From an uncultured Ectothiorhodospiraceae bacterium (lineage in GTDB: Bacteria; Pseudomonadota; Gammaproteobacteria; UBA6429; Thiohalophilaceae), in assembly GCA_947260005.1 (NCBI GenBank), contig CAMYOL010000058.1:62001-126000 (forward strand): a DNA stretch of 64,000 nucleotides, given 5' to 3'. The notes beneath the pieces are model-generated. The model was not told the origin of the DNA, searched no databases, and worked only from the letters and a program-made list of their open reading frames with translations. The translations under genes and the position numbers were made by a program. Below, in pieces: positions 3,745 to 37,445 of this stretch (the first letter of the stretch is position 1; the number at the start of each line of letters is the position of its first letter).

Positions 3745-4625
3745 ATCAGGCAACAACAAAACCCCACCGCGATACGATTGTCGTTGAGCAGGCTGAAATT
3801 CTAAACCACGATGCCTTTGACGGTGACCAGTACATTATGCGTATACAGGCAGCCAATATTGCTAGACGCGCTCATGCCGGCAGTTTTGTACACATTCAAT
3901 GTGATCCATCGTTGCCCATGCGTCGCCCTATTTCAATCATGCGTGTCGATAAGGAAACTGGTTGGGTTGAATTTTTATATAAAGTTTTTGGGGAAGGTAC
4001 TCGACTTTTATCTCAGCGCAAAGTGGGTGAAGTCCTTGATCTGTTTGGTCCTATCGGTGTACCTTTTATGCTCCATTCAGAGCGTTCTCGCCCTCTGTTA
4101 ATCGGCGGAGGCGTTGGTATACCCCCGATGATTTATCTCGCCGATGAATTGCGTAGCCAAAAAGAATTTAATCCATTTGTGATCATGGGTTCCGAGGTTC
4201 CTTTTCCTTTTTCCCCTCGTCCGTCAACCATGATGTTACCAGGCATGCCTGATGGGGCGATTGCCTGTATGCCTTTACTTGAAGACTGGGGTGTCGCGTC
4301 ACGTCTGACCAGCACCCAGGGTTACCCCGGTTGTTTTGACGGTTTTGTCACTGACCTGGCACGACATTATTTAAACGCATTAAATAAACAACAACGCGAA
4401 CAAATCGAAATATTTAGCTGCGGCCCCACCGTCATGTTAAAGGCCGTGGCGCAACTCGCCAAGGAGTTTGATCTCCCCTGTCAGGTCTCATTAGAAGAAC
4501 ACATGGCCTGTGCCGTTGGTGGCTGTGCAGGTTGTACGGTCAAAATAGAAACCGAATCCGGTCCGGCAATGAAGCGAGTTTGTGTTGATGGGCCCGTCTT
4601 TAATGCCCACCAGGTCGTTTTTTAA
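3741..4625 (+). CDS. pyrK: PyrK-type dihydroorotate dehydrogenase electron transfer subunit
   Basis: This 294-residue ferredoxin-reductase-like flavoprotein has an FAD-binding RRPISI motif (residues 61-66), a glycine-rich IGGGVGIPPM nucleotide motif (121-130), SCGPTVML (227-234) and a C-terminal [2Fe-2S] site with Cys257, Cys262, Cys265 and Cys281. PyrK normally forms a heterotetramer with PyrD of the 1B class and passes electrons from dihydroorotate to NAD. No pyrD lies in the window, so its partner is either elsewhere or different. It overlaps pyrC' by 4 bases (ATGA) and is the last gene of the operon. Confidence 0.9.
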   Translation: MNQATTKPHRDTIVVEQAEILNHDAFDGDQYIMRIQAANIARRAHAGSFVHIQCDPSLPMRRPISIMRVDKETGWVEFLYKVFGEGTRLLSQRKVGEVLDLFGPIGVPFMLHSERSRPLLIGGGVGIPPMIYLADELRSQKEFNPFVIMGSEVPFPFSPRPSTMMLPGMPDGAIACMPLLEDWGVASRLTSTQGYPGCFDGFVTDLARHYLNALNKQQREQIEIFSCGPTVMLKAVAQLAKEFDLPCQVSLEEHMACAVGGCAGCTVKIETESGPAMKRVCVDGPVFNAHQVVF

Positions 4626-35773: not shown

Positions 35774-36199
35774 ATGACTATTTCATCACGTGCACATTAT
35801 GCAATTAAAGCTATGTTAAATTTGGCTTTCCAAATGCCAAATCCTGTGTCACTCACCTCGTTAGCGAAAAAACTGGATATCTCGCTATCGTATCTGGAGC
35901 AAATTTTTGCATTGCTACGCAAAAATAATCTCGTTAAGGGCGTACGCGGTCCAGGTGGAGGATATGTTCTTGGTAAACCGAGTGAAATAATTTCTATTGC
36001 TGAAATTGTTTCTGCGATTGATATCAATCGTAAAACGGCCGCCGACTTTAAAGGACAACCACAATCGGCAACACTTTTCGCCTGGGGTGTTCTGGAGTCT
36101 AAAGTTTCAACTAACCTGGATGGAATTACTTTAGCCGCTATCCATGAAGAAACAGTGGAACGTATGAACATGAACGAAAGTAATATTGTTGCTGCTTAA
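35774..36199 (+). CDS. Rrf2-family transcription regulator without Fe-S cysteines
   Basis: The 141-residue protein has a winged helix (SRAHYAIKAMLNLAF, SLTSLAKKLDISLSYLEQIFALLRKNNLVKGVRGPGGGY) as in IscR. The three cysteines that hold the iron-sulfur cluster in IscR are absent; there is no cysteine in the whole protein. The C-terminal dimer helix is otherwise typical. It is not followed by isc or suf genes and ends at its own terminator. Target genes are unknown; it may sense something other than Fe-S status or bind DNA as an apo form. Confidence 0.9.
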   Translation: MTISSRAHYAIKAMLNLAFQMPNPVSLTSLAKKLDISLSYLEQIFALLRKNNLVKGVRGPGGGYVLGKPSEIISIAEIVSAIDINRKTAADFKGQPQSATLFAWGVLESKVSTNLDGITLAAIHEETVERMNMNESNIVAA

Positions 36200-36223: not shown

Positions 36224-36255
36224 AAAAAGCCCGATCATATGATCGGGCTTTTTTT
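36224..36255 (+). terminator. Terminator of the Rrf2 gene
   Basis: A perfect AGCCCGATCAT / ATGATCGGGCT stem is followed by seven T residues, 25 bases after the stop codon. The A run on the other side could also stop - strand transcription. Confidence 0.95.
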
Positions 36256-36263
36256 ATCCGTAA

Positions 36264-36458
36264 TTAAATATCTGTATGTTGCGAACGTGATTCTGCTTCA
36301 ATAAACACATGTTTCACCACTGGGTATGCTACTTTAATCTCTTTAGTCAATTCCGTTACGCTAGTTTCTATAACCTGAGCTGCAACTTCTTTAGTAATTG
36401 AAATTAAGGAATTACCAATCATTGCAGCATAGATAACCTTTTTAGAGGAACCAGCCAT
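36264..36458 (-). pseudogene. Internally deleted remnant of a CDF cation efflux transporter
   Basis: The 64-residue frame joins two pieces. Residues 1-27 (SSKKVIYAAMIGNSLISITK) match the N-terminus of a CDF transporter, where the first transmembrane helix begins. Residues 28-64 (ELTKEIKVAYPVVKHVFIEA) match the cytoplasmic C-terminus, where LERRIK.AHP.VKRVFIEAQS is typical. The 250-300 residues holding the other helices and the metal sites are missing, so it cannot transport. The frame stays open across the join. Alternatively it is a new small protein made from the two ends. It starts 6 bases after the previous gene. Confidence 0.7.
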
Positions 36459-36464
36459 AAATAA

Positions 36465-36926
36465 TTACATCTTTATATGTTTGAGTAAAAGAATCATCAG
36501 TTTGTGCAGATTTTTGAGTCGAACGGATAAACGAAAATTTGTATTATTGGGGTCAATCTCAATAATGGTTTTTAATTGATCTATCTTTAATACAATGTTC
36601 TCAAATAATTGTTCAGTTTGCCAACCGGCATAGACCTGTAGTGACTTAATATCCTTAGTTAAACGTGTACTCACACGGGTTTTCTTTAAGTCTTTAAAAC
36701 TAAAATCACTCTTTAATGCTTTCTCAGTTTCCACTACCGACAGTTTTTTTATGATCACATGGGTTTTAGATTTGTTTTCTAAAAACAGATTTAGCAAATT
36801 AATATTTTTCTGTAGCTCGAGTAAGACAGCCCGTTGAGTTCCACGGGTATTTTTAAGTAATGACTGAAATATCTTGGCGATATTAGCTGAGGTAGACAGG
36901 CCAGACAAAAAGGCATTTAATACCAA
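36465..36926 (-). CDS. Hypothetical helical protein
   Basis: The 153-residue product is basic, rich in Leu, Lys and Asn, mostly helical, with no signal peptide and no recognised family. Translation would begin at TTG 36926, nine bases from a GGAGG site. It lies between DUF2244 and the CDF remnant on the - strand. It may be real because of the ribosome site and the length, but I cannot assign a function. Confidence 0.55.
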   Translation of the reverse strand: MVLNAFLSGLSTSANIAKIFQSLLKNTRGTQRAVLLELQKNINLLNLFLENKSKTHVIIKKLSVVETEKALKSDFSFKDLKKTRVSTRLTKDIKSLQVYAGWQTEQLFENIVLKIDQLKTIIEIDPNNTNFRLSVRLKNLHKLMILLLKHIKM

Positions 36927-36962: not shown

Positions 36963-37445
36963 TTATAATGCCGTACTAACAAATGGACGCAATTTTGTTA
37001 TTAATTCATTTTTTTCCTGTTCAGTCAAAAAAGCTCCAATCTCAATTTTTTCATACCGACCACGCAATATGATTTTAGTGGCATGCCAGGCATGCCCGGG
37101 TTGTTGCACGATCAATCGAGTCCAAAACAACTCAGATTCCCAGATCGAATGTGGTTGTGCGATACCTTGCTCTACGCGGATTTTTTCCGGTGAAATATGG
37201 ATTACCTGTTTACGATAACACTGTCTGGCCACCCGGTGCATAACCAAAAGCAATACCATTATCTCAACACCGGCAAAGGGCAGGATCATCCACAGACCAA
37301 CGAGCGCAAATGCAACCCCGATACACAAGGCAAAAAAACTAACTATGAATAAAAATACTTTTGTGCTCTGCCAGCGCGCAGACAGATTGGGGCTTAAAAC
37401 GATATAACCGTCATGTCGCTCTATGTCGAGATGTCCCGAGATCAT
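36963..37445 (-). CDS. DUF2244 membrane protein
   Basis: The 160-residue protein has an N-terminal soluble stretch (LSPNLSARWQ), two transmembrane helices (about 29-50 and 52-70; LPFAGVEIMVLLLVMH) and a beta-rich C-terminal domain, as in the DUF2244 family found near cytochrome oxidase genes in proteobacteria. No oxidase genes are adjacent here. The function is unknown; it is an inner membrane protein. Confidence 0.85.
   Translation of the reverse strand: MISGHLDIERHDGYIVLSPNLSARWQSTKVFLFIVSFFALCIGVAFALVGLWMILPFAGVEIMVLLLVMHRVARQCYRKQVIHISPEKIRVEQGIAQPHSIWESELFWTRLIVQQPGHAWHATKIILRGRYEKIEIGAFLTEQEKNELITKLRPFVSTAL

Follow-up and report, generated by a model that had tools for sequence, protein, structure and literature searches.

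CDF transporters have a membrane domain of approximately six helices that contains metal-binding residues. In Salmonella, young pseudogenes are rapidly removed by deletion, as set out in the part of the study by Kuo and Ochman on which we draw (2010; PMC2916853), and nothing specific to CDF remnants appeared in the available portions of the literature matches listed. The stretch analysed here (the window) comprises 64,000 nucleotides from an uncultured Ectothiorhodospiraceae bacterium. On its minus strand, the open reading frame listing gave a frame of 64 codons and a stop codon (36264..36458) that begins with ATG and has the C-terminal end VFIEAESRSQHTDI. A two-domain profile match identified it as a CDF remnant, in which both ends of a transporter, the first 23 to 27 residues and the last 37 to 41, are present in one frame.

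Scans of the 64-residue frame against Pfam and NCBIfam returned no match at E ≤ 1, which is unsurprising because the frame consists of two short pieces, and a profile from close relatives was needed. The references were frames of at least 300 residues with E < 1e-100 to the protein of locus L060, the one relative on which CDF identity was checked (TIGR01297, 157 bits against a cut-off of 82). With the duplicate loci L041, L059, L060 and L067 removed, 43 references were left, and 42 without L015, the ends of which are identical to those of L013; L039 and L040, which are very alike, both stay among the 42. The profile HMM made from these near-complete CDF proteins has 318 positions, and it was run with filters off over all stop-to-stop frames of at least 20 residues in the window. 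The underlying alignment was built with the window pieces present, the profile itself coming from the 42 rows alone.

Against this profile, the references of which had been picked partly by their resemblance to the 64-residue frame, the frame as a whole scored E 1.2e-15 and is thereby homologous to the CDF family, with one domain at profile positions 9-42 (i-E 2.1e-9) and another at positions 276-313 (i-E 1.9e-7). It was the sole strong scorer among the 1,878 window frames, the runner-up having an E of 0.21; among 18,780 shuffled frames, the lowest E was 0.36. When the frame was cut between residues 23 and 24, the two halves scored separately at 1.8e-7 and 2.4e-7. The preliminary description had read the frame as two CDF ends brought together by an in-frame deletion, a reading that would be hard to hold if neither half resembled CDF proteins; each half does so by itself, and the reading stands.

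The N-terminal piece comprises codons 1-23 (36390..36458, minus strand) and aligns from profile position 10, and the C-terminal piece comprises codons 28-64 with the stop codon (36264..36377, minus strand) and aligns up to position 313. Between them, alignment and profile place a join zone of four codons, 24-27 (EVAA; 36378..36389, minus strand). The join falls somewhere from residue 23 to residue 27. K23 goes with the first piece, Q28 and all that follows with the second, and V25, A26 and A27 match both. Because VAA fits both parents, the exact breakpoint cannot be placed, and the division into 27 and 37 residues first proposed is within the possible range. Approximately 240 of the 318 profile positions are absent from the frame, which does not have the membrane domain of a CDF transporter, positions from about 33 to 275 being gone. 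By the usual CDF layout, we take the N-terminal piece to be the start of the first membrane helix and the C-terminal piece to be the end of the cytoplasmic domain.

The order of genes on the minus strand is DUF2244, a 153-residue gene and the remnant, which begins six bases past the 153-residue gene. The DUF2244 membrane protein (36963..37445, minus strand) was assigned by Pfam with E 5.1e-33. The 153-residue gene (36465..36926, minus strand), known from the open reading frame listing and from relatives and without a Pfam match above cut-off, is directly upstream of the CDF slot and served as one marker of it. The second slot marker is the convergent gene of an Rrf2/IscR-type regulator (35774..36199, plus strand), identified by Pfam, NCBIfam and relatives. 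A hairpin search located a terminator-like hairpin (36224..36253, minus strand), and alignment revealed its inverted repeat at the same place in two genomes of the genus, G001 and G002. The CDF gene was the last on its strand ahead of this hairpin, since the hairpin sits between the remnant and the Rrf2 regulator.

The 64- and 153-residue proteins were used to search 58 genomes, namely the window's own (G000), three of the same genus, 33 others of the family and 21 of the class; the Rrf2 regulator was searched in 36 of the 58. The slot between the 153-residue gene and the regulator could be read in four relatives, G001, G002, G007 and G019. The preliminary description had proposed a look for the intact gene in related strains; no genome with a readable slot has an uninterrupted CDF gene there. 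From the stop codon of the 153-residue gene to that of the Rrf2 gene there are 265 bases in the window, 355 in G001, 144 in G002 and 110 in G007. In G001, of the same genus, the copy is broken: it has lost its start codon, has a stop at codon 5 and shifts frame. Its pieces correspond to profile positions 15-37, 37-54 and 87-105, with a weak match at 296-315 (E 0.03-0.04; frame E 0.028), and because G001 retains pieces that the window has lost, the window deletion is not common to G001. In G002, also of the genus and the nearest by the 153-residue protein, only a 21-residue frame is left, MAGSSKKVIYAALTRAQHSSI (profile E 0.0061), a scrap that the search with the 64-residue protein missed and that was found through the neighbour genes. 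The 110 bases between the neighbours in G007 gave no CDF match to the profile.

In G019 the CDF gene is divided between two contigs: the end of C21 carries positions 9-120, and the complementary part, positions 120-313, is near the start of C2. The sequences that border the two parts share a 12-base inverted end, and both 137-base ends recur once elsewhere at 100% identity, one on C22 (again at a contig end) and the other on C23. Judged from these ends, the gene was apparently split at profile position 120 by a repeated multi-copy element, one that may be of the IS110 type. Though it extends over two contigs, the full gene content is present in G019 between the same neighbours, as is to be looked for in a relative of a deletion pseudogene.

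Other genomes contribute less. G003, of the same genus and approximately 70% complete, gave no match to the 153-residue protein and none to Rrf2 at E ≤ 1e-30, and its slot is unreadable. The Rrf2 gene of G008 and G022 is beside DUF2244 with neither the 153-residue gene nor a CDF gene between them; these two are uninformative on a former CDF gene because the 153-residue gene is missing there as well. A complete 316-residue CDF gene adjoins a distant homologue of the 153-residue gene (35% identical) in G012, in reverse order. The 153-residue protein itself has homologues in 10 of the 58 genomes, the window's own included, adjoins a CDF gene in G012 and G019, and may constitute an uncharacterised family. 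No CDF frame was seen around its homologue in the DNA fetched from G004, G028, G034 and G036. A separate observation concerns the DUF2244 gene of G002 (L062 985-1465), which consists of two overlapping frames of 60 and 109 residues from their start codons; decay beyond the CDF gene, or an assembly error, may be behind this split.

An orthologue family of about 64 residues would speak for a small protein in its own right, as the preliminary description recognised. Such an orthologue was looked for in the 58 genomes and in 44 public-genome loci, a set that may leave out the window's own genome or very near records, and within the limits of these searches, which missed the G002 scrap and could miss other very short or diverged forms, none was found. 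A second genome with the same join as the window was likewise not found among these genomes and loci. The 64-residue protein matched 12 of the 58 genomes, its own included, with 14 matches in total; the matching frames besides those of the window and G001 are of 220-327 residues, apart from one of 83 residues in G023 that is cut by the contig start. Among the 44 loci, 36 have a CDF frame of at least 300 residues. The other eight were inspected on the match strand only: L021 has profile positions 9-46 alone and L026 positions 223-311 alone; L029 and L035 have a mid-gene break, perhaps a sequencing error; L007, L036 and L046 are cut by the contig start; and in L024, positions 7-84 are joined out of frame to 277-314, with no surviving frame. 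The match in L021 (4992-5120), from an uncultured gammaproteobacterium, is a CDF frame of 43 residues with the N-terminal end only. Similar-length orthologues under purifying selection, the mark of a conserved small protein, were not found for the 64-residue frame among the genomes searched.

Other CDF genes are present in these bacteria. The window's own genome, which is 99% complete, has two PF01545 matches at E ≤ 0.001, in frames of 396 and 217 residues, both of other types. G001 has three CDF matches (400, 222 and 204 residues), G002 one (395) and G007 three (398, 398 and 235). In the search with the 64-residue protein, an intact copy of the lost subtype was not listed in G000, G001, G002 (approximately 86% complete) or G007 (approximately 71% complete). 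The other CDF pumps may make the lost transporter dispensable.

Comparison of the window with G002 over codons 2-12 yielded four differences, all of them synonymous, for which the neutral probability is approximately 0.006 (neutral synonymous share 0.28); codon 13 has a non-synonymous difference, but this is at the join of G002. The pattern indicates that, for a large part of the period after the split from G002, selection acted on the gene start at the protein level, most simply on a whole gene in both lineages; exclusively synonymous differences are what two genes intact for much of that period would be expected to show. The synonymous distance between G000 and G002 is dS 0.36 for the Rrf2 gene and 1.27 for the 153-residue gene, such distances being saturated (inf) for several pairs. 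Against the two ends of G001, with one codon omitted that is a stop in G001, dN/dS was 0.10 over 35 codons (17.2 synonymous and 10.8 non-synonymous differences). This value mostly reflects the period when the gene was intact, and for that reason, and because G001 itself is broken, it was not counted as present selection.

Neutral evolution was simulated in 4,000 runs that start from the present sequence. At 0.05 substitutions per site, 64% of the frames were open with a start codon and 93% had lost at most 4 of the 21 conserved residues; the corresponding figures were 21% and 9% at 0.2 substitutions per site, and 13% and 0.9% at 0.3. By this model, a remnant half as old as the G002 split would often no longer be open and would be without many of its conserved residues. 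Of the 25 positions with at least 80% conservation among the references, the actual remnant retains 21, and 4 of the 42 references score as low or lower (9 of 42 and 7 of 42 at cut-offs of 70% and 90%). This count is towards the bottom of the range of the references and equals that of the two parts of G019, also 21 of 25, so that decay of the remnant is hardly visible so far.

We consider it very probable, irrespective of when the deletion occurred, that the 64-codon frame is a pseudogene remnant. Judging from G019, the ancestral row would have run from DUF2244 through the 153-residue gene to a full CDF gene, and past the terminator would have come the convergent Rrf2 gene. A single deletion event of approximately 240 codons would then have taken the membrane helices, except for the beginning of the first, and the greater part of the cytoplasmic domain, with rejoining in frame by chance, and the frame would still be open by virtue of its youth. 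The product, if translated at all, would be without the transport core and most likely has no function. The preliminary description had called the open frame unusual, which is not so: a random deletion preserves the frame one time in three, and in a young remnant there has been little opportunity for a stop to arise. Some observations fit less comfortably with a pseudogene: no relative was found with an uninterrupted CDF gene in the exact slot, G019 alone having the whole content and in two parts; with 21 of 25 conserved positions kept, there is hardly any decay to see; and the G002 scrap is also in frame, so that two in-frame survivors in sister species are a mild coincidence, approximately 1 in 9 if independent. 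The same scrap could be a later stage of the window remnant, which would make the remnant older. One form of the pseudogene reading is accordingly that an old deletion is common to both species and that G002 has since shrunk further; the window and G002 both retain the two extremities of the gene, and both are in frame. G000 and G002 are far apart, however, by the synonymous distances of both marker genes (0.36 and 1.27), and in the simulation a neutral remnant of such age usually has stops and has lost conserved residues. An older deletion of this kind, common to both and followed by shrinkage in G002, is rather unlikely, and less likely than a recent one. The neutral simulation instead argues that the deletion probably came after the split from G002, the nearest sampled species, and the remnant is most likely the recent deletion product of a gene that has been lost repeatedly in this bacterial family.

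The preliminary description had left the choice between a very recent deletion and a small protein kept for another use; the slots of the relatives and the simulation favour the former, and the latter drew no support from G001, G002, G007 or G019. A small protein that is kept and used might be a peptide that binds or regulates another CDF dimer through its C-terminal end. Its frame is open, with an ATG six bases behind the 153-residue gene, both ends are still CDF-like, and all four differences from G002 in codons 2-12 are synonymous (neutral P ~0.006), although a gene intact until recently explains these differences equally well. Moreover, the C-terminal fragment is missing most of its domain, neither the 58 genomes nor the 44 loci have an orthologue of such shape, and the slot is broken in G001, reduced to a scrap in G002, empty in G007 and split in G019. 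We regard a retained small protein as very unlikely, and very slightly more so the version in which this one species translates the end-to-end CDF peptide and has recruited it to a new role, for example that of modulating the remaining CDF transporter on contig C14. Least credible of all is that the deletion is an artefact of assembly or binning and that the organism has a full CDF gene. The genome is in 81 contigs, possibly from a metagenome assembly, and the join was seen in one assembly only, but it lies inside a contig of 171 kb (L047), the two CDF matches of this 99% complete genome to PF01545 are both of other types, and three relatives are without the gene at the same spot, each in a different manner.

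The remnant matters little in itself, ordinary gene decay being the most likely account and not a new small protein. It provides an example of the parallel loss of one transporter gene within one family, by in-frame deletion, as a scrambled copy, a scrap and an empty slot, and by an apparent insertion, and it cautions against taking an open frame, even one in which both ends are conserved, as evidence of a working small protein. When the remnant is set against complete CDFs of the subtype (PF01545, TIGR01297; for example, the 316-residue protein at L060:1459-2406, minus strand), both of its ends align with them residue by residue, and it lacks the membrane core beyond the beginning of helix 1, together with most of the cytoplasmic domain. 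The CDF remnant at L024 (Chromatiales bacterium BM003, 4158-4500) is of the same subtype and passes directly from profile positions 7-84 to 277-314. Judged from its sequence, another bacterium has here undergone a parallel end-to-end deletion, different from that of the window in its out-of-frame join, its larger N-terminal piece and the absence of the searched neighbour genes from the fetched DNA. Unlike the pseudogenes of the Salmonella study, to the extent of the part drawn on here (PMC2916853), the window frame is still open from start to stop; like bacterial deletion pseudogenes as that part presents them, it appears to be a young disrupted gene that deletion has shortened, and in relatives its removal has reached other stages.
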